32,129 nt of DNA from Sandaracinus sp. Lineage in GTDB: Bacteria > Myxococcota_A > Polyangia > Polyangiales > Houyiibacteriaceae. The stretch spans positions 1 to 32,129 of the forward strand of contig PABA01000029.1 of assembly GCA_002699025.1 (NCBI GenBank), given 5' to 3'. The position numbers and the translations under genes were made by a program. Below the pieces are notes generated by a model. The model was not told the origin of the DNA. It made no database searches and worked only from the letters and a program-made list of their open reading frames with translations. Shown piece by piece: positions 6,751 to 32,129 of this stretch (positions are counted from its first letter, which is position 1; every line of letters begins with the position of its first letter).

Positions 6751-7830
6751 TCAGCCCGCGCGGAGCAGCCAGACGAGCCCGGCGAGGCTGAGCGCCAGCA
6801 CCGTGCCCGCGAGCACGTAGATCACCAGGTCGGCTCCGCCGGCGCGGCGACGGGGGGCGGTGGCCGCGCTGCTGAGCGGCGTCGCCGGATCGGGCTCGGG
6901 GGCGTCCTCCGGAGCCTCCTCCGGTGTGGCCTCCCCCGCCGTCTCGGTCCCCTTCTTCCCGCCGGTCTCGGCGCTCTCGCCCCCGTCCGCCGCCTCGGCC
7001 TCCGGGCTCTCCCCGTCGTCGCCGTCCGCGTCGGCATCCGCGTCGTCCGCCGCCTCCGGCTCGAGGGGCGCCGGCTCCGGCAGCTCCATCGCCTCCTCCG
7101 GCGCGGCCGCGAGCGCGTCCACGGCGCTGGCGGCCGCGTCCTCGAAGACGAGGATCGTCGCCCCCAGCTGGAGCTCGTCCCGGTCCGCGAGCAGCACGTC
7201 GTGCACCGGTCGGCCGTTTCGCAGCACGCCGTTCTTGCTGCCGAGGTCCCGGACGCGCACGCCCGCCGACTCGCAGACCAGCTCCGCATGCTCGCGCGAG
7301 GCGTCGCCGTCCTCGAGCACGAGATCGCACTCCTCGCCCCGCCCGAGCACGAGGCTCGCCGGCGGCGGCGGGAGCACCAGCTCGCGCCCCTCGCTCGGCC
7401 CGTTCGCCACCCGCAGCCGCGGCGCCTCGAGCTCGCCCGCGCTCGGGTCGAGCGCGTCGCGGACCAGCCGACGGGCGAGCGCGGCGGTCTTCTCGGCGGA
7501 GGTCGGGCCGGCGATGACGCCGATCTCCACGCGCAGGACGAAGCCGCCGATCTCGAGCACGTCCCCGGCGCGGAGGGGCTTGGCCCGGCCCGGCGCGATC
7601 CGGCTCCCGTTCACGCGCGTGCCGTTCGTCGAGTCCTCGTCGACCAGCGCGTAGCCGGCCCCTTCCGCCCGCACCGTCGCGTGTGTCCCGCTCACGGCCG
7701 GGTGCGGCAGCTGCACGTCCGCGCCCCGACGCCGCCCGATGACGACGCGCGCCTGGTCGAACTCGTAGCGCCCCTCCGTCGCGTCGGAGCGACGCGTCCA
7801 CGAGGAGCGCACGACGAGCCGGAGGCCCAT
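6751..7830 (-). CDS. Tail-anchored protein with two FHA domains
   Basis: FHA domains bind phosphothreonine peptides, so this 359-residue protein is a probable reader of Ser/Thr kinase signalling. FHA-1 spans about 25-105 with GRRRGAD (32-38), the SGTH binding loop (47-50) and STNGTRVNG (67-75). FHA-2 spans about 138-230 with GRGEECD (163-169), SREH (178-181) and SKNGVLRNG (198-206). Both keep the key Arg, Ser, His and Asn positions. A long Asp/Glu/Ala-rich linker (about 240-325) leads to a single hydrophobic helix close to the C-terminus (about 333-356). There is no signal peptide, so the protein is tail-anchored with the FHA domains in the cytoplasm. It lies 54 bp behind the Cys-cluster gene on the same strand and may be read with it. 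Confidence 0.9.
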   Translation of the reverse strand: MGLRLVVRSSWTRRSDATEGRYEFDQARVVIGRRRGADVQLPHPAVSGTHATVRAEGAGYALVDEDSTNGTRVNGSRIAPGRAKPLRAGDVLEIGGFVLRVEIGVIAGPTSAEKTAALARRLVRDALDPSAGELEAPRLRVANGPSEGRELVLPPPPASLVLGRGEECDLVLEDGDASREHAELVCESAGVRVRDLGSKNGVLRNGRPVHDVLLADRDELQLGATILVFEDAAASAVDALAAAPEEAMELPEPAPLEPEAADDADADADGDDGESPEAEAADGGESAETGGKKGTETAGEATPEEAPEDAPEPDPATPLSSAATAPRRRAGGADLVIYVLAGTVLALSLAGLVWLLRAG

Positions 7831-19320: not shown

Positions 19321-19437
19321 CCGAAGAGCGGGTGACGCGGCCGGAGCGACCGCTCGGCGCCGAGGAGCGGGTGACGCGGCCGGAGCGACCGCTCGGCGCC
19401 GAAGAGCGGGTGACGCGGCCGGAGCGACCGCTCGGCG
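19321..19437 (+). repeat. 39-bp tandem repeat, three units, inside the kinase N-terminus
   Basis: Three units at 19321-19359, 19360-19398 and 19399-19437 are identical except for one A/G change. They keep the frame and encode the 13-residue repeat EERVTRPERPLGA. Each contains an in-frame GTG, so the true start of the gene is ambiguous and may differ between strains with different copy number. Confidence 0.9.
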
Positions 19438-20885
19438 CACCGGCTGCGCCGGGTACGGCACCCCCCGGTACGCCCCCGCTGACGGGCCTCGAGGCCACCG
19501 AGCGCGGGGAACCTCTCGGCGCGGCGTCTCAGGTCCAGGCCGCCACCTCGATCCGCGCGGGTCGCGCCTCGAGCACGCCGCCGCTGCTGGCTCCGGGCGA
19601 GCTGGTCGACGGGACCTACGAGGTGCTCCGTCTCCTGGGCGAGGGCGGCATGGCGCAGGTGTTCGAGGCCCGCGATCGGGCCCTCGACCGCGTCGTCGCG
19701 CTCAAGGTCGCCACGGCCTCGAGCGAGGGGCCGGGCTCGCTCCGCGCCGAGGCGCGCGCCCTCGCCGCGTTCCGGCATCCGAGCCTGCTCACGGTCCACA
19801 CGCTCGGGCGCCACCGGGGCCTCGACTTCCTCGTCCTCGAGCGCATCTACGGCGTCAGCCTCCAGCGGCACCTGAAGGCCCGCCGGGCCGAGGGGCGCCG
19901 CTTCGACGTCCCCCAGGTGCTCGGTCTCGTCGCGGAGCTCGCGGACGGCCTGGCCGTGCTCCACCGAGCGGGCCTCGCGCACCGCGACGTGAAGCCGAGC
20001 AACGTGATGCTCTCCCCCGACGGCCGCGTCGTGCTCATGGACTTCGGGCTGGCGCTCCCGGAGTTCGAGCTCGCCGACCAGGCGGTGCTCGCCGGGTCGC
20101 CCCCCTACATGCCGCCGGAGGCCTTCGCCAACGCCGTCGAGCCCGGCGGCGGGCGCTACGTCGATCTCTTCGCGCTCGGCGTGCTCACCTACGAGCTCCT
20201 GGTTTTCGAGAGGCCCTTCCCGGGGCGCAGCGCCGGAGAGGTCTGGGACGCCCACCAGCGCGGCGTCCGCCCCGATCTCCGCGCCGTGCGCCACGACGCC
20301 CCCCCCGCGCTGGTCCGGCTCGTTCACGAGATGCTCTCCCCGGCGCCGGAGGACCGCCCGGCGAGCGCCGAGGGCGTCGCCTGGGAGCTGCGCGCGCTCA
20401 TCGCGAAGCAGCGCTCCCGGTCTGCCGCCACGACCGAGCCCCCCGCGGGAGCCGAGGCGCGCGCCGCGGGGGCGCCGCTTCGCGTGTTGCTCGTCGAGGA
20501 CGACGAGGACATGGCGCGCGTGCTCGCCTTCTACACGCAGCAGATCCTCGGCCGGGACGTCGAGCTCCGGCGCGCCCGGGACGGAGTCGAGGCCATCGAC
20601 GCGGTCCGCGCGGAGGCGCCCGACCTGCTCCTCCTCGACCTGCACATGCCGCGCATGAACGGCATCGAGGTCTGCATGGAGCTCCGCGGCGCGCGCCTCG
20701 CGCCCCACGCCCGCATCGTCAGCGTGAGCGCCGGCGCCCAGGAGCACGACCTCCAGCTGCTCCACGCGCTCGGCATGCACCACTTCGTGCCCAAGGGGCA
20801 GGACCTGCGCGGTCGCCTCGAGGCGGCACTCCGCGAGCTCTTTCCGCTGCACGTCTCGCGCGCGGCGGAGGGCTCGCGCGAGTGA
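19332..20885 (+). CDS. Ser/Thr protein kinase fused to a response-regulator receiver domain
   Basis: The 517-residue product (from the first GTG) starts with the 13-residue repeats and a Pro/Ala-rich leader. A complete Hanks-type kinase domain follows (about 95-355): GEGGMAQVF glycine loop, Lys125 in VALKV, HRDVKPSN with Asp219, DFG at 237-239 and PPE in place of APE. After a 25-residue linker comes an intact receiver domain (382-505), with acidic pocket EDDED (389-393), phospho-acceptor Asp436 in LLLLDLHMP and Lys488 in VPKG. There is no membrane segment. It thus joins Ser/Thr kinase output to two-component phosphorelay input. No strong ribosome site fits the GTG, and the frame is open upstream to beyond TAGGCT (19231), so the start is uncertain. 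It converges with the HEAT-repeat gene. Confidence 0.9.
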   Translation: MTRPERPLGAEERVTRPERPLGAEERVTRPERPLGAPAAPGTAPPGTPPLTGLEATERGEPLGAASQVQAATSIRAGRASSTPPLLAPGELVDGTYEVLRLLGEGGMAQVFEARDRALDRVVALKVATASSEGPGSLRAEARALAAFRHPSLLTVHTLGRHRGLDFLVLERIYGVSLQRHLKARRAEGRRFDVPQVLGLVAELADGLAVLHRAGLAHRDVKPSNVMLSPDGRVVLMDFGLALPEFELADQAVLAGSPPYMPPEAFANAVEPGGGRYVDLFALGVLTYELLVFERPFPGRSAGEVWDAHQRGVRPDLRAVRHDAPPALVRLVHEMLSPAPEDRPASAEGVAWELRALIAKQRSRSAATTEPPAGAEARAAGAPLRVLLVEDDEDMARVLAFYTQQILGRDVELRRARDGVEAIDAVRAEAPDLLLLDLHMPRMNGIEVCMELRGARLAPHARIVSVSAGAQEHDLQLLHALGMHHFVPKGQDLRGRLEAALRELFPLHVSRAAEGSRE

Positions 20886-24725: not shown

Positions 24726-26081
24726 TCAGCCCTCCACCAGCGCCCGCGCCGCCCGCAGCGCCTCCAACGCTTCCTCTTCCTCCCCCGCGCGGAACGCCTC
24801 CCAGCCCCGCCGCACCAGCGCCTCCGCGCGCCGGTCCTCGGCGCCCGGCTCGCGGGCGGCGACCGCGAAGCTCAGGAGCGCCGCGGCGAGGGGCGCGTCG
24901 CTCACGGCGTCCGCCAGCCGCAGCCAGCCGCGCGTCGGGAGCGCCTCGGGCGCCACGCCCTCGGCCAGCGCGGCGAGGCGCGTGGCGATGCGCTCCCCGG
25001 CCACCGCCGTGCGCCCATCGCGGCTCCGTCGCGCGATCCACGCCGCCGTGAGCAGCGGCGCCGTCACCGGCGGGCGAGACGCCCGGACGGCCGCGTCGAG
25101 GGCCTCGGCCCGGTCGAGGAGCGGCTCCTCGCGGCGCGCGGCGGCGACGAGATCCAGCGCTCGCCAGGTCGGCGTCGGGGCCCCCTTCGGCGGACCGGCG
25201 CTGCCGTGCTCGAGCACGGCGCGCGCCCGCCGGATCGCGTCGCTCGCCGCCGGCGCGTCGCTCGCCGCGCCCTCCGCCTCCTGCAGCACGGCGTCCCGCG
25301 CGGCGAGCCGAGCCAGCGCGAGCTCGCGCTCGGCGGCGTCCGGCCAGCCCCGGAGCAGGGTCCGCACCCGGTCGATCTCGATGGGGGTCAGCCGCCCCTC
25401 GGCGTCCGCGTGGCGCGCCGCCAGCCGGCGCGCCGCCCGCGCCACCTCCGGGTCGCTCCGCTCCTCCTGCGCCGCCAGCTCGATCAGCCCGTCGAGGGCC
25501 GCCACGCGCCCGTAGCGCCCCTTGGTCTGGAGCTTCGCCGCCAGCGCCGCCAGCCGCTCCCGCGGCGCCAGGGCCAGCGCCTCGAGGGGCTCCTCGCCGG
25601 CCTGGCCGACGCCGCGCCGCGCGAGCCGCGCCCGCGCCCCCGCCACCAGGCTCGCGTCGCCCCGCTCCTCGCCGAGCATCGCGGCCCGCTGAAGATCGGT
25701 GCGCGCCGCCTCCGCGTCCTCGGCGCAGCGTGCCCGCAGGTAGAAGGCGCGCCCATCCCGCGGCGCGCGCTCGCACTCCGCGTCCGCGAGCGCCCAGGCC
25801 TTCTCCACGAAGCCGCGCCGCCTCAGCCGCGCGCAGGCCCGCGCGAGGGCCCGCCGGTGAGCGCCCCCGGGCGGCTGCGCGCGCCAGCGCCGCAGCTGCG
25901 CGTCGATCGCCGCGCCGTCGCCGAGCTCCAGCGCCCAGTCGAGCGCGAGGAAGATCGCCCGCGCGCGCTCGGCCGGGGCGCCGAGCCCGTCGATCAGGGC
26001 GTCCAGCGCGCGGAGCCCCGCCCGCGGCCCGAGGCGCAGGCCGAGCTGCTCGGCGGCGGTGACGGCGAGCCGGTCCTTCAC
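24726..26081 (-). CDS. Helical-repeat protein, last gene of the Hsp70 operon
   Basis: A 451-residue protein rich in Ala, Arg, Leu and Glu, predicted from its sequence to be almost entirely helical, with TPR-like pairs (AWALADAECERAPRDGRAFY, AARTDLQRAAMLGEERGD, ALVRRGWEAFRAGEEEEA). There is no signal peptide or membrane segment. The GTG at 26079-26081 overlaps the TGA of the Hsp70 gene (GTGA), so translation is coupled and the two proteins are likely made in fixed ratio. Helical-repeat proteins often act as chaperone adaptors or substrate selectors. That role here is inference; no family is recognised. Confidence 0.78.
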   Translation of the reverse strand: MKDRLAVTAAEQLGLRLGPRAGLRALDALIDGLGAPAERARAIFLALDWALELGDGAAIDAQLRRWRAQPPGGAHRRALARACARLRRRGFVEKAWALADAECERAPRDGRAFYLRARCAEDAEAARTDLQRAAMLGEERGDASLVAGARARLARRGVGQAGEEPLEALALAPRERLAALAAKLQTKGRYGRVAALDGLIELAAQEERSDPEVARAARRLAARHADAEGRLTPIEIDRVRTLLRGWPDAAERELALARLAARDAVLQEAEGAASDAPAASDAIRRARAVLEHGSAGPPKGAPTPTWRALDLVAAARREEPLLDRAEALDAAVRASRPPVTAPLLTAAWIARRSRDGRTAVAGERIATRLAALAEGVAPEALPTRGWLRLADAVSDAPLAAALLSFAVAAREPGAEDRRAEALVRRGWEAFRAGEEEEALEALRAARALVEG

Positions 26082-28663
26082 CCGCGCTCCGTGACCAGGC
26101 CGATCTGCGGCAGGCGCTCGACCCCGTTCTCGATCCGCTCGAGCTCCGCCGCGGCCTGGTCCAGCGTCCGACGCAGCGTCGCCGCCGGCGTGCCCTCGAG
26201 CGAGAGCTGCCCGAGCGGCCCCGTCACCTTCTCCCCGAGCGTCGCGAGCAGCCGATCCCGCTCGGCGCTCTGCAGCGCGCGCACCTCTTCCGTCGTCGAC
26301 GGCACGAAGTCGCGGAGCGCTCGCTCGACGTGGTTCGACCAGGCGACGACGTTCATCATGCGCCGCTGCAGGTACGCCGGATCGTCGAGGCGCTTGCTCG
26401 CGAACTCCTGCTCCGAGGCCGTCTCGTAGAGCGCCTGCGTCTCGTTGTAGAGGCGCCGCCAGGCCGCGGCGTCGCCCGCGTCCCAGGCCGCGCTCGCCCG
26501 CTGCTGGAGGTCCTCGATGCGCGCCTCCCAGGCCTCCTGATCCATGCCCAGCATGGTCCCCCCGGCCCGGTAGACGACCCGCCGGAGCGCGTCGAGGATG
26601 CCCTCGAAGCGGTGCATGGGCGGCGAGAGCCCCTCGCCCGAGCCGTCCCGGAACTCCTCGACCAGGAGCTGGAGCCGCGCCGCCAGCGCCGCCGCCTTGT
26701 CCGGGTCCGTGCTCAGCACCTCCCGGAGCCCGGTCGCGAGCGGCTCGAGCTCGCGCCGGTAGAAGCTCGCCTCGCGCCCCCAGAGCCCGCGCGCCACGTC
26801 CTCCGCCTCCGCCAGGAGCGCCTCGACCGCCGCCGCCGACTTCGGCGCCTCGAGCTGCGCCGGCTCGATCTGCGCCCAGAGCTCCTGCCCGGCGACCACC
26901 GCCTTCGCCTCGAGGCGCATGGTCTCGTCGCAGCTCAGCGCGAGGTCCACGGGCGTGCCCACCTCCGTGCCCTCGGGCACGGTCACGACGAGCGTCTTGA
27001 TCGGCAGCCGGTTCTGCAGGAGCCGCAGCACCACGGCCCCGCTCTTGTCCGCCGTGTAGAAGCGGTGCTCGGCCGAGTGGGGCAGGCCCGCGCCGCGGGG
27101 GATGAGCACCTTCCGCTCGCGTCGCCCGGCGCGCACCACCTCGAGGGCGATGTCCTTCGCGATCACCGAGGGCTTGCTCAGGCTGCTCGCGCGCGGGCGC
27201 ACGTCGCCGCGGTAGAGGGCGAAGGGCACCTCGGCGAGGGGCGCGTCCTGCGTGCCGAGGAGCTCGAGGCGCACGCGCTGCTCCGGCTCCTCGCCGAGCG
27301 GCACCACCATGCGCAGGCGCCCCGAGGGGATCTCGCTCAGCTCCGCCGTCACCAGCGGCCCCTCGTCGTCGCTCACGGCGACCTCGCTCACGCCATCCGG
27401 CGCCGCCTCGACCTCGAGGCTCAGCTTGAGCTCGGGCTTGCGCGCGACCAGCGGCGAGGTGAAGAGGACCCGGGTCTCGGGCTTGTTCTCCGTCGCCTCG
27501 AGCCCGAGGCGCAGCCCGCCGAGCTGGGCCGCGTGGATCGCCGCGCCGAGCGCCACGCAGGTGTCGACCTCGTCCTGGAGCGGCGCCTCGATGCCCGCCG
27601 GCGCGCAGAGCTTCTCCTGCACGGCCTTCATCACGGCCGGCACGCGCGTGGAGCCGCCCACGAGCACCACGTGGTCGATGTCGCCCGCGCCCACGCCCGC
27701 CACCTCGAGGCTCCGGGCGATGGCCCGCTCGCAGCAGCGGATCGTCGTGTCCACCAGATCACCGATCGCCTCCTCGTACTCGGCCCGCCCGATCTCCGCC
27801 TCGAAGCTCAGCGGCTCGCCGCCCCGGTCCGTGGCGAAGTCGTGCTTGGCGACCATGACCACCTCGCGCGTGCTCAGGCTCTCCTTGATCTCCTGGGCGA
27901 GGTGCACGAGCCGGAGGAAGCGCGTCGCGTCCTCGGCGTCGTCGCGCACGTCGAGGTCCAGGTCGTAGCCCTGCTCGCTCAGGCGCTTGCGGAGCACCTC
28001 GGCGTAGCGCCGGTCGAAGTCGTCGCCGCCGAGGTAGTTGTCGCCGTCGATGGCGAGCACCTGGTACTCGCCGCCGAGGCAGCGGAGGATCGAGACGTCG
28101 AAGGTGCCGCCGCCGAGGTCGTAGACGAGGAAGTTCCCGTCCCCGAGCTGGTGGCGCCAGGTGTGGTAGATCGCCGCCGCCGTCGGCTCCTGGAGCAGGC
28201 CGAGCACCTCGAGCCCCGCCAGCTCGCCGGCCTTGCGCGTGGCCTCCATCTGCGGCGCGTCGAAGTAGGCCGGGACGGTGATGACCGCTCGCCCCACGCG
28301 CACGTCGATCTCGTCCGGCGCGCCCTTCTTCAGGTGCGCGAGCATGGCCTCCTTGAGCTCGCCGAGGATGGCCGCGCTGACCTCCTCCGGGGCCATCTCC
28401 TTCGGGCCCACCATGACCGTCGTCGGGTGGCCCATCTTGCGCTTGATGGACTCGATGGGCCCGGGCGTCCGGCCGCGGCGGTTGCGCGCGGCGCGGCCGA
28501 CGAGGAGCTCCTCCTTCTTCGGGTCCCAGGCGACGGCCGAGGGGATGGTCTTGCGGCCGAACTCGTCCGCGTACACGAGCAGATCCCGCTCGGAGGGGTC
28601 GAGGATGGCGACCTCGGAGTTGGTGGTGCCGAGGTCGATGCCGACGGGGCGATCTACGAACAT
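26078..28663 (-). CDS. Hsp70-family chaperone with an extra beta insert and long C-terminal helical region
   Basis: An 861-residue ATP-dependent chaperone, compared with about 640 for DnaK. The nucleotide-binding domain (1-383) is intact: GIDLGTTNSEVAI (8-20), SIKRKMG (72-78), GLLQEPTAAAIY (155-166), VYDLGGGTFDVSIL (180-193) and VLVGGSTRVPAV (333-344). Then comes a region of about 100 residues with beta character (about 390-490) that DnaK lacks. A DnaK-like substrate domain follows (about 493-600, from SLSKPSVIAKDIALEVV to TMRLEAKAVV). The last 250 residues are helical, twice the usual lid. There is no EEVD-like or Gln/Gly-rich tail. The start at 28663 begins the conserved domain; no strong ribosome site is seen. 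Fourth of five minus-strand genes; the next gene overlaps its stop. Confidence 0.92.
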   Translation of the reverse strand: MFVDRPVGIDLGTTNSEVAILDPSERDLLVYADEFGRKTIPSAVAWDPKKEELLVGRAARNRRGRTPGPIESIKRKMGHPTTVMVGPKEMAPEEVSAAILGELKEAMLAHLKKGAPDEIDVRVGRAVITVPAYFDAPQMEATRKAGELAGLEVLGLLQEPTAAAIYHTWRHQLGDGNFLVYDLGGGTFDVSILRCLGGEYQVLAIDGDNYLGGDDFDRRYAEVLRKRLSEQGYDLDLDVRDDAEDATRFLRLVHLAQEIKESLSTREVVMVAKHDFATDRGGEPLSFEAEIGRAEYEEAIGDLVDTTIRCCERAIARSLEVAGVGAGDIDHVVLVGGSTRVPAVMKAVQEKLCAPAGIEAPLQDEVDTCVALGAAIHAAQLGGLRLGLEATENKPETRVLFTSPLVARKPELKLSLEVEAAPDGVSEVAVSDDEGPLVTAELSEIPSGRLRMVVPLGEEPEQRVRLELLGTQDAPLAEVPFALYRGDVRPRASSLSKPSVIAKDIALEVVRAGRRERKVLIPRGAGLPHSAEHRFYTADKSGAVVLRLLQNRLPIKTLVVTVPEGTEVGTPVDLALSCDETMRLEAKAVVAGQELWAQIEPAQLEAPKSAAAVEALLAEAEDVARGLWGREASFYRRELEPLATGLREVLSTDPDKAAALAARLQLLVEEFRDGSGEGLSPPMHRFEGILDALRRVVYRAGGTMLGMDQEAWEARIEDLQQRASAAWDAGDAAAWRRLYNETQALYETASEQEFASKRLDDPAYLQRRMMNVVAWSNHVERALRDFVPSTTEEVRALQSAERDRLLATLGEKVTGPLGQLSLEGTPAATLRRTLDQAAAELERIENGVERLPQIGLVTERG

Positions 28664-28739
28664 GGTGGGTCCGGTGTCTTCGAGGTGAGGGGAGGGCGGA
28701 GCGGGTCGCGGGGATGCGAAACGGCTCGCCCGGAGGCGT

Positions 28740-29102
28740 TCAATCCTGGAGGAGCGGATCGTCTTCGAGGGGGACGTCGGGGAGGAGGGGACCCTCGGCG
28801 TGGAGGGCCGCCCCGATCGAGGGGAGGGCGGCGAGATCGGCGAGGGCGAGGGGGGGATGCGCGCGGCGGCGGCGCGGCGGGCGCGGCGGGCGGCCGACGG
28901 GGGGCCGGGTCTCCGGGTGGGCGAGGAGGGCGAGCTCGACGCGGCGGCGCGGGTGGAGCGTGAGCGCCTCCCAGTCCTCGCGGATGGCGGCGCGCTCGTG
29001 CTCGTCGGTGGCGTCCTCGACGCGCTCCCGGAGCGCTTCGGTGATCGCCTGGGGCCCGGCGAGCGGGTCGAGGTCCCAGCGCTCGAAGGGGTTGTCACTC
29101 AT
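28740..29102 (-). CDS. Small acidic/basic protein upstream of Hsp70, faint J-domain resemblance
   Basis: A 120-residue protein. Residues 1-65 are helical (NPFERWDLDP, then QAITEALRERVEDATDEHER, then AAIREDWEALTLHPRRRVEL). The order helix-helix-HP-helix and the HPR at 50-52 vaguely recall a J-domain with its HPD motif, but the Asp is replaced by Arg, so normal stimulation of Hsp70 ATPase would not be expected. A Pro/Arg-rich linker (68-85) leads to an acidic tail ending in VPLEDDPLLQD. The ATG overlaps the stop of the preceding gene (ATGA), and Hsp70 follows after 76 bp. The position right before Hsp70 suggests a co-chaperone; this is inference. Confidence 0.72.
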   Translation of the reverse strand: MSDNPFERWDLDPLAGPQAITEALRERVEDATDEHERAAIREDWEALTLHPRRRVELALLAHPETRPPVGRPPRPPRRRRAHPPLALADLAALPSIGAALHAEGPLLPDVPLEDDPLLQD

Positions 29103-30358
29103 CGCGGCTTCTCCCGGGCGAGGGCCTCGCGGGCGCGCTGCAGGCGGGGGCCGTCCGGCCACAGGCTCTCCGCGCGCTGCACGTCCTGGCGCGCCGCTTC
29201 GACGGCCGGGCCGCGCTGGAAGAGGGGGGCGCGGGAGAGCGTGCGGAGGGCACGCTCGGCGAGCAGATCGGCGAAGACGAGGCGGCCGTTGCGGTGCGTC
29301 TCGCAGAGGGCGACGGCGCGCTCGGCGGCGGCGAGCTGGTCGTCGAGGCGCGCCTCGAGCTCGGCGCGGAAGACGAGCATCTGGGCGCAGCGGGCCGCGT
29401 AGGGGAGGAGCGCGGCGCGGTCGGCCTCGAGGCGCGCCGCGAGCGAGTCGACGGGGGCGCGCAGCGTGTCGTTGAGCCGGCGGAGCGGGTCCCAGCGCCG
29501 GTGGTTGTAGAGCTCCCATGCGAGGGGGAGCGCCTGGTCCACGACGAAGCGCTCGAGCTCGACGTCGCGGTCGGCCCAGCGCCAGGTCTCGACGGCCTCG
29601 GCGAGGAGGGCGAGCTGCTCGTCGCCGGGCTCGCTCCGGGCGTTGGCCTCCTCGAGCTCCTCCAGGAGCGCGCCGGTGGCGGCATCGAGGATGGCCTGGC
29701 GGTGCGCGCGGGCGCGACGGAAGAAGCGCGAAGCGGCTCCGTCGCCGTCCTCGTGCTGGGGCTCGTGCTCGCTCTCACCGAAGGCGAGCCGCGTCGCCAC
29801 CCGCAGGTCCCCGAGCACCCGGAGCGCGAGGCGCGCCTCCTCCGTGCGCTCGGCGGCTCCGGCGCGCCCCGCCTCCCCGAGCGCGTCGAGCCCCCGCAGC
29901 GGGATCGCCCGGGCGACCTCGCGGCGCTCGCGCGCGTCCAGCGCCGGGCCCGCCGCCGCGTCGGCGAGCGCGTCGAGGTAGGCCTCCTCGGCGTCGAGGG
30001 CCATCCAGGCGGCGAGGCCGAAGAGGTGCGCGTCCCGGGCCTCGGCGCCGGGCCCGAGCGTGCGCGCGACGCGCCCCTCGAAGAGCGCGAGGTGGTGGAG
30101 CAGCGCGGGGGCCCGGCCGGCGAGCGGCGTCGGGCGGGCGGCGGCGCGGAGCGGGGCGAGGTCGCCGGCGCGGGCGGCGCGGGCGGCGCGCTCCCCGGCC
30201 TCGTCCTCGCGGAGCAGGTGCACCAGGCCCGCCGCGCGCGGGTGGGGCGGCGGGGCGCTCGGGTAGGTGCGGAGCCGCCAGAGCGCACCGAGGAGCTGCT
30301 CGTTCTCGAGGCGCGTCAGGAGCGCCGCGTCGTCGGGCCGCCACACGGCGCGGATCAT
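29099..30358 (-). CDS. Unidentified helical protein of the Hsp70 operon
   Basis: A 419-residue, Leu/Ala/Arg/Glu-rich cytoplasmic protein, apparently helical throughout and without signal peptide or membrane helix. Segments such as RWDPLRRLNDTLRAPVDSLA and ERAVALCETHRNGRLVFADL resemble TPR-like helical pairs, and the C-terminal part (FQRGPAVEAARQDVQRAESL) repeats the pattern. An acidic, low-complexity loop (SEHEPQHEDGDG) lies near the middle. The ATG at 30358 has GGAGG 4 nt upstream, which fixes the start. Its stop overlaps the next start by 4 bp (ATGA). It lies 20 bp behind the first gene of the operon. Function is unknown; the company suggests a chaperone partner or client. Confidence 0.8.
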   Translation of the reverse strand: MIRAVWRPDDAALLTRLENEQLLGALWRLRTYPSAPPPHPRAAGLVHLLREDEAGERAARAARAGDLAPLRAAARPTPLAGRAPALLHHLALFEGRVARTLGPGAEARDAHLFGLAAWMALDAEEAYLDALADAAAGPALDARERREVARAIPLRGLDALGEAGRAGAAERTEEARLALRVLGDLRVATRLAFGESEHEPQHEDGDGAASRFFRRARAHRQAILDAATGALLEELEEANARSEPGDEQLALLAEAVETWRWADRDVELERFVVDQALPLAWELYNHRRWDPLRRLNDTLRAPVDSLAARLEADRAALLPYAARCAQMLVFRAELEARLDDQLAAAERAVALCETHRNGRLVFADLLAERALRTLSRAPLFQRGPAVEAARQDVQRAESLWPDGPRLQRAREALAREKPR

Positions 30359-30378
30359 CGAGCCTCCGCGCGGCGGGT

Positions 30379-31302
30379 TCAAGCGCGGGCGGCGAGCTCG
30401 GTGAGCCAGTCGCCGAAGGCGTCGTCGGCGAGGAGCGAGCCCAGCAGCGTCTCGGCCTGGACGCGGACCCACGCCCGGACCGTCGGGAGGGCGCCCACCT
30501 CGTCCAGGAACGCGCCGAGCGTCTTGTCGCCCTCGACGGCGAGGAAGGCCTCGATCTCGGCGCGGAGGAGGGCCCGGCCGAAGGCGCTCCGGGCGTTCTG
30601 CTCGACGATGGGCGGGAGCTCGCCGGCGAAGCCCGCCCAGGGGAGGCCCTCGAGGTCGTGGAGGATGGTCGAGAGGGGCACGGTGAGCGTGCGGCGGAAG
30701 GCCTGGGCGCGGATCTCCCGGACGATGGCCCGGCCCTCGTCGGAGGCGAGGCGGGCCGAGAGCGCGTCGCGGAGCCCTCCGACGGCGGCGCGGCTGAACT
30801 CGCGCGCGATGCCCTGGACGCCGGCGCCGACGCCGCGGGTCGCCTTGCCGCCCATCTTCGCCAGCGCCCCCGCGAAGCCGCCGACGCCGGGGAGCTTGCC
30901 GACGAATTGGAGGAGGAGCTCCTGGAGGACCGGGGCGAAGAGCTTCTTCAGGAGCTCGCCGTCGACGGTGTCGCGGGCCCAGGCGAAGCGCGGGAGGCGG
31001 AGGTCGACGACGAGGGCCTCGAGGGCGTCGGCCTGCGCGGGGGGGAGGAGCTCGCCGACCGTGAGCTCGGCTTCCTCGGTGGCGGTGAGGAAGCGGCCGA
31101 CGGCGGGGACGGCGTGGTCGTCGAGGCCGCGAGCGACGGGGGCAGCGGCGAGGAAGGCCTGGGCGAGCTCGGTGAGGCCGGTGACGTCGACGAGGTCCCC
31201 GAGGGGGCGCGCCAGGAGCTGGTCGACGACCAGGGCGACGCCGCGGCGGCGGAGCGCTTCGTCCTCGAGGAGAGTGCGGCGGATGTCCGGGGGCGAGGCC
31301 AT
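30379..31302 (-). CDS. Unidentified protein, first gene of the Hsp70 operon
   Basis: A 307-residue protein of no recognised family. It is mostly helical and lacks a signal peptide. A central segment with hydrophobic helix LLKKLFAPVLQELLLQFVG (117-135) and a Gly-rich stretch (136-165, including PGVGGFAGALAKMGGK) could touch a membrane or form an oligomer. The C-terminal half has several amphipathic helices (GRALLRAEIEAFLAVEGDKT, VRVQAETLLGSLLADDAFGD). The ATG at 31302 (MASPPDIRRTLL) is chosen over an in-frame start at 31353 because the upstream residues are not protein-like; no strong ribosome site helps. It opens the five-gene minus-strand operon and is divergent from the SCP2 gene. Confidence 0.75.
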   Translation of the reverse strand: MASPPDIRRTLLEDEALRRRGVALVVDQLLARPLGDLVDVTGLTELAQAFLAAAPVARGLDDHAVPAVGRFLTATEEAELTVGELLPPAQADALEALVVDLRLPRFAWARDTVDGELLKKLFAPVLQELLLQFVGKLPGVGGFAGALAKMGGKATRGVGAGVQGIAREFSRAAVGGLRDALSARLASDEGRAIVREIRAQAFRRTLTVPLSTILHDLEGLPWAGFAGELPPIVEQNARSAFGRALLRAEIEAFLAVEGDKTLGAFLDEVGALPTVRAWVRVQAETLLGSLLADDAFGDWLTELAARA

Positions 31303-31674: not shown

Positions 31675-31998
31675 ATGCCGGACGCCAAGACCTCGTTCGA
31701 GAAGGACATCCCCGAGAAGATCAAGGCCGACCCCGACAAGGCGAAGGAGGTCGACGCCATCTTCCTGTTCAACATCACCGGCGACGGCGGGGGCACCTGG
31801 ACGGTGAACCTGAAGGACGACCTCGGCGTGACCGAGGGCGACGCTGGCAACGCCGAGTGCACCATCGAGGTCTCGGACGAGAACTGGCAGGAGATCAGCG
31901 ACAACCCGGCGCAGGCCATGCAGCTGTACTTCAACGGTGAGCTGAAGGTGACGGGCAACGCGATGCTCGCGACGAAGCTCCAGGAGATCCTCAGCTGA
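31675..31998 (+). CDS. SCP2 sterol-carrier-type lipid-binding protein
   Basis: A 107-residue, acidic, soluble protein consisting only of an SCP2-like domain. SCP2 domains bind sterols, fatty acids or acyl-CoA in a hydrophobic tunnel. Typical features are the strand GGTWTVNLKD (about 39-48), the ECTIEVSDENWQEI strand-helix, NPAQAMQLYFNGELKVTGN (the conserved F-N/x-G-x-L/I-K-V-x-G-N motif) and the final helix MLATKLQEILS. AAGGAG at 31662-31667 lies 7 nt before the ATG. The gene has its own promoter, an operator-like palindrome and a strong terminator, so it is a single-gene unit, likely well expressed and regulated. The ligand is unknown. Confidence 0.92.
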   Translation: MPDAKTSFEKDIPEKIKADPDKAKEVDAIFLFNITGDGGGTWTVNLKDDLGVTEGDAGNAECTIEVSDENWQEISDNPAQAMQLYFNGELKVTGNAMLATKLQEILS

Positions 31999-32059: not shown

Positions 32060-32070
32060 TCGGGGGCGGT

Positions 32071-32129
32071 GCTCGAAGCGGCGGTGCTCGAAGCGGCGGT
32101 GCTCGAAGCGGCGGTGCTCGAAGCGGCGG
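32071..32129. repeat. 15-bp tandem repeat running off the window end
   Basis: Four copies of GCTCGAAGCGGCGGT start at 32071, 32086, 32101 and 32116; the last is cut by the window edge after 14 bases. The copies are identical where seen. The array lies behind the SCP2 terminator and its full length cannot be known from here. Confidence 0.85.

Follow-up and report, generated by a model that had tools for sequence, protein, structure and literature searches.

Genes at the locus

The window, a stretch of 32,129 nucleotides, is one entire contig of a 9.2 Mb assembly in 238 contigs. It carries five minus-strand genes, including one for an Hsp70 variant, and a plus-strand gene that diverges from them:

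30379-31302, minus strand: g1, 307 aa; same direction as the others here, outside the conserved unit (homologues on other contigs)
29099-30358, minus strand: g2, 419 aa; core partner by conservation upstream of the J-like gene
28740-29102, minus strand: J-like gene, 120 aa; so named from AF2, Foldseek/VIA and HHalign comparisons
26078-28663, minus strand: Hsp70 variant, 861 aa, ATG start; Pfam HSP70 1.7e-72
24726-26081, minus strand: g5, 451 aa, TPR-like; start overlaps the Hsp70 stop
31675-31998, plus strand: SCP2 sterol-transfer-like protein; Pfam SCP2 2.4e-19; divergent from g1

We checked the coordinates and overlaps of the five genes in the sequence, and they bear out the arrangement described in an earlier sequence-only reading of this DNA, namely five minus-strand genes with an ATGA overlap, a GTGA overlap and a 20-bp gap. 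The gap separates g1 from g2, the ATGA (29099-29102) is shared by g2 and the J-like gene, and the GTGA (26078-26081) joins the Hsp70 stop to the g5 start codon; the J-like gene and Hsp70 are 76 bp apart. Pfam and NCBIfam recognise Hsp70 as the sole known product among the five, in agreement with the same reading, which had left the other four unrecognised. Neither an HPD J-domain nor GrpE is encoded among these five genes.

That reading had treated all five genes as one operon, which over-counts. In relatives, the homologues of g1 sit on other contigs, and in three of them (L155, L156 and L158) they adjoin an SCP2 gene. We therefore place g1 outside the conserved unit and reject it as a part of the Hsp70 machine; g1 and SCP2 form a separate divergent pair, and g1 lies upstream of g2 in this genome by happenstance. 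The contig ends, at 32069-32129, in a tandem repeat with a 15-base unit (gccgcttcgagcacc, minus strand). Elsewhere in the window, Pfam identifies a protein kinase domain fused to a response-regulator receiver domain (19332-20885, plus strand) and a protein with FHA and YscD-cytoplasmic-like domains (6751-7830, minus strand).

The rest of the genome holds further chaperone genes. About twelve Hsp70-like genes (L002-L012) were found, together with about ten J-domain matches and one GrpE gene outside the locus, and three other Hsp70 genes (on C61, C221 and C118) lie no more than a few kb from J-domain matches on their contigs. The presence of GrpE, HPD J-proteins and these other Hsp70/J neighbours indicates that the cell keeps normal Hsp70 systems beside the variant.

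Conservation of the unit across Myxococcota

The conserved unit consists of four genes, not five, in the order g2, J-like gene, Hsp70 (and g5). It recurs in Sandaracinaceae, Polyangium, Labilithrix, a Nannocystis MAG and Lujinxingia, and most of the 12 regions examined show this order. g2 is present in 13 of the 58 genomes searched, its own genome counted. The J-like profile matches 47 of 380 genomes of the phylum, spread over 30 of 235 genera, with one match per genome.

The J-like gene and Hsp70 are found together almost without exception. Hsp70 is present at 19 of the 20 J-like loci examined; at the remaining one, L078 (5502-5888), holA, g2 and the J-like gene follow one another with no Hsp70 downstream on the contig, either because the gene was truly lost or as an artefact of assembly. 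A scan of genome contigs for the C-terminal half of Hsp70 yielded 53 loci, including those of Polyangium fumosum, Polyangium sp., Labilithrix MAGs, a Nannocystis MAG and Lujinxingia vulgaris; it relied on short peptide patterns, so genomes without a match may still carry the gene. Where at least 2.5 kb of sequence lies upstream of Hsp70, 38 of 39 loci hold the J-like gene; the lone exception (L143) has Hsp70 and g5 without it. The sets of 20 and 39 loci share genomes, and their counts are not additive. Adjacency of the two genes is kept despite an inversion (L070/L140) and despite spacers (L032, L083). In one group of genomes, the order is lon, J-like gene, Hsp70 and a g5-like gene, with a full Lon protease gene replacing g2 directly upstream of the J-like gene (L131, 2856-5429; L139, 2987-5464; L080, L081, L136 and L137). 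Neighbour clustering of the loci revealed neither a conserved flanking client gene nor a recurring HPD J-gene, and the recurrent neighbours holA and lon were limited to particular locus groups.

These results support the earlier proposal of a dedicated, conserved Hsp70 system, as g2 and the J-like gene adjoin orthologous Hsp70 genes across families and classes. The proposal had named the absence of the partners beside orthologous Hsp70 genes in relatives as the observation that would speak against it; when this was checked, three partners (g2, the J-like gene and g5) proved to be retained there.

The g2 product has no Pfam family match; judged from its sequence, it is probably helical, with a putative TPR-like pattern near the C-terminus. 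g5 can be recognised chiefly within the taxonomic order of this genome; distant homologues in other classes occupy the same position, and HHalign links it to the downstream genes of other locus groups (E 3.7e-10 and 5.3e-7). Weak TPR_2 matches occur in three of eight g5 members. When every sequence in the J-like, g2 and g5 alignments was compared with Pfam, the matches were few, scattered and weak, and profile searches of solved-structure sequences with g2 and the J-like protein returned nothing convincing. From the weak TPR-like signals we infer putative adaptor roles for g2 and g5.

The Hsp70 variant and its J-protein interface

The Hsp70 variant is assigned by sequence to the Hsp70 superfamily (PF00012) and is neither a DnaK nor an HscA equivalog, its NCBIfam scores of 262 and 241 bits lying far below the respective cut-offs of 648 and 620. 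Its AF2 model (pLDDT 86.8, pTM 0.80) and the family alignment define the following features, all on the minus strand:

Residues 1-382, minus strand: NBD (AF2 model)
Residues 384-485, positions 27209-27514, minus strand: extra eight-stranded beta domain of about 100 residues, between NBD and SBDbeta (AF2 strands)
Residues 486-504, positions 27152-27208, minus strand: connector with consensus RASALSxPSVxAKD, replacing the VLLLD linker of DnaK (register ambiguous)
Residues 505-599, minus strand: SBDbeta (AF2 model)
Residues 610-853, minus strand: helical region (AF2 model)
Positions 28199-28201, minus strand: codon of Gly155, equivalent to DnaK Arg167; Gly, Ala or Ser in 39 of 39 family members

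VIA-align places residues 4-603 onto BiP, matching 462 residues at 2.6 A (Z 38.3), implying that the NBD and SBDbeta are modelled in a docked state with the insert accommodated. The model fits BiP and DnaK through SBDbeta and continues in helices, so that an SBDbeta and a helical lid are both predicted. The extra beta domain has no sequence match among solved structures, and a profile search of solved-structure sequences with the C-terminal part gave nothing convincing. A PilZ identity for the insert, suggested by CsdK, was considered and dropped, since in CsdK the PilZ domain is N-terminal and the stretch here that resembles PilZ falls on SBDbeta in the alignment.

The HPD motif of J-proteins is regarded as indispensable for Hsp70 activation. 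In the DnaK complex, D35 of this motif contacts R167 and Q378, H33 contacts L391 and P34 contacts P419 (PMC8215388); DnaK E217 is a further J-domain contact (PMC13012618). We mapped the 39 family members on E. coli DnaK and use its numbering. The R167 position holds glycine in 36 members, alanine in two and serine in one, and the switch residue R151 is replaced by V, I, M or A. N170 has become Q or H, E217 Q, E206 R or K, and Q378 mostly H. T215 has become E, so the change of the interface is not a simple charge swap. K70, P143, E171, D194, T199 and D201 are invariant in all 39 members, and the SBDbeta landmarks P419 and V436 are kept. By this alignment, the Hsp70 side has lost most of its HPD contacts with its catalytic residues intact. 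The combination of Arg167 with a VLLLD linker that characterises the DnaK type is missing from the family.

R151, R167 and N170 are all retained in the eight full-length paralogues of the same genome (8/8), and fixed differences between the family and these paralogues number only six in the NBD, R167 and N170 among them. Loss of R167 alone is not unique to this family: it is also seen in three divergent Hsp70-like proteins that the same genome encodes (L010, L011 and L012), although these carry R or K at position 151.

An extra hinge domain, a rewritten linker and the loss of R151 and R167 would also suit a regulatory or scaffold Hsp70 resembling Ssz1 or StkA, in which the ATPase is not J-driven at all, with the J-like protein forming a structural part of a stable complex that includes g2 and g5. 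StkA of Myxococcus xanthus has itself been proposed as possibly Ssz1-like (PMC4319316). We nevertheless consider such a role unlikely for the variant, as all catalytic residues tested and both SBDbeta landmarks are conserved, and the predicted fit of NBD and SBDbeta to BiP in the docked state points rather to a functional chaperone cycle.

The J-like protein and the meaning of the pair

The AF2 model of the 120-aa protein (pLDDT 85.7) has helices at residues 5-8, 17-30, 34-49 and 51-60, in the order of the J-domain pattern, with a three-residue loop at the place of HPD. The predicted J-fold core (residues 1-65, HPD absent) leads into a segment rich in Pro and Arg, and the C-terminal tail is acidic and conserved (PLxxDPxL). 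No homologue aligned contains an HPD motif, and the loop between helices II and III is shortened. None of 37 members matches Pfam DnaJ (PF00226) at E <= 1; because HPD is absent from its sequence, the protein falls outside the strict J-domain family. The open reading frame is under purifying selection, with dN/dS of about 0.24-0.49 between close pairs.

Structural comparison repeatedly leads to J-domains. Foldseek matches of the model are rich in them, each weak (E 0.33 or higher). In VIA-align, Z reaches 8.0, nearly all of the top 41 rows are J-domains and clearly non-J rows begin at Z 3.8, scores to be read in the knowledge that small helical folds reach moderate structure-match values by chance. 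Tetrahymena complex I chains with putative J-domains occupy the first three rows, and 5nro_B, a J-domain bound to DnaK, superposes at 1.7 A over 54 residues. HHalign aligned the protein with nine J-domains of its own genome across helices I-III (P 1.8e-4) and with a set of 33 J-domains across helices I-II only (P 5.7e-4), compared with P 0.01 for the best of 53 control segments. Together, these comparisons give moderate support to a predicted J-domain helical fold, which is not decisive alone, and the protein appears to be a cryptic J-domain without the HPD loop. Its helix II is acidic (mean charge -0.9), whereas that of canonical J-domains is basic (+2.8), suggesting that the docking surface of the J-like protein has changed too.

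The faint sequence similarity and the missing Pfam DnaJ match could mean that the small protein has no kinship with J-domains or makes no contact with Hsp70, which would then be an ordinary chaperone served by the common DnaJ and GrpE that the genome encodes. This is improbable in view of the near-perfect co-occurrence of the two genes, the consistent J-domain fold matches and the loss of HPD contacts on the Hsp70 side. A second arrangement has a precedent in Pam16/Pam18, where an HPD-less J-like protein pairs with another J-protein (PMC11349236). By this account, the protein would pair with one of the genome's HPD J-proteins, of which the roughly ten J-domain matches provide candidates, tether or restrain it, and act on Hsp70 as a pair. 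Of R167 and Q378, the residues that HPD would grip, the variant has lost the first and mostly the second, and neighbour clustering showed no HPD J-gene recurring at the locus. We therefore also hold this arrangement to be rather unlikely.

We favour a dedicated Hsp70 machine in which the J-protein partner has become HPD-independent and works with helical adaptors (g5 being TPR-like), and we put this predicted arrangement at slightly better than even odds (about 0.55). The joint loss of HPD in the J-like protein and of the HPD-gripping arginine in Hsp70 suggests, at the level of sequence, a naturally rewired chaperone pair. That the pair is naturally orthogonal, having abandoned the HPD-Arg167 trigger together so that a partner, client or the hinge domain drives ATP hydrolysis, is a tentative extension to which we give somewhat less than an even chance. 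Of the sequence-only reading, the dedicated conserved operon stands; its five genes do not, and its failure to see a J-protein or GrpE holds for HPD J-domains and GrpE but not for the predicted HPD-less J-fold, with which the small partner looks like a modified J-protein, not an unrelated replacement. Its further idea, of partners standing in for the usual co-chaperones, is plausible as regards the J-protein, R167 and HPD both being lost; for nucleotide exchange, one GrpE gene is present elsewhere in the genome.

In the machine that we favour, the J-like protein would dock on Hsp70 permanently or through its changed surface. Its C-terminal tail, with g2 and g5, may recruit a limited range of clients, in the way that AtcJ-AtcC may direct DnaK to a single task, and binding of a client or partner, not the HPD-Arg167 contact, would trigger ATP hydrolysis. 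Both halves of the HPD contact are gone, yet the catalytic residues and the gene linkage are kept over a large evolutionary distance. If the proposal is true, the question of what HPD is needed for becomes directly testable, and the pair may offer an orthogonal chaperone system; should the J-like protein serve solely as a scaffold, bacteria would have in it a counterpart of Pam16.

A search of the open literature, with most subscription papers outside its range, found no described bacterial operon of an HPD-less J-like protein and Hsp70. By analogy, the closest parallels to the locus are specialised Hsp70s that have a J-partner of their own (HscA/HscB, HscC/DjlB/DjlC), to which it adds a Pam16-like twist in the J-protein and the operon logic of atcJABC. 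HscA/HscB and HscC/DjlB/DjlC likewise combine a divergent bacterial Hsp70 with its own J-type partner for a narrow task (PMC8215388). However, HscB, DjlB and DjlC are described as J-domain cochaperones (PMC8215388), whereas here HPD is deleted, the Hsp70 residues that contact it are replaced, a beta domain separates NBD from SBDbeta, and two more partner genes are present. Pam16/Tim16 and kinetoplastid Pam18 share a J-fold without canonical HPD, but they are mitochondrial import-motor or inner-membrane proteins (PMC11349236), while the protein described here is bacterial and co-encoded with its Hsp70, its loop is itself shortened and the Hsp70 side has changed too. AtcJABC of Shewanella resembles our unit in its short J-protein with a C-terminal extension, in operon partners of unknown function and in linking Hsp70 to one task; AtcJ, in contrast, has a functional J-domain and uses DnaK, and the operon as described (atcJ, A, B, C) contains no Hsp70 gene (PMC6715715).

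Extra specialised Hsp70s are also known from myxobacteria, in StkA (PMC4319316) and CsdK1/CsdK2 (PMC10313047) of M. xanthus, for which the accessible portions of the two reports describe no HPD-less J-like partner. StkA, a 540-aa protein, is encoded next to stkB, a downstream gene for an SCP2-like protein (PMC4319316). With SCP2 neighbouring an Hsp70 gene in M. xanthus as well, the association between the two kinds of gene may recur.
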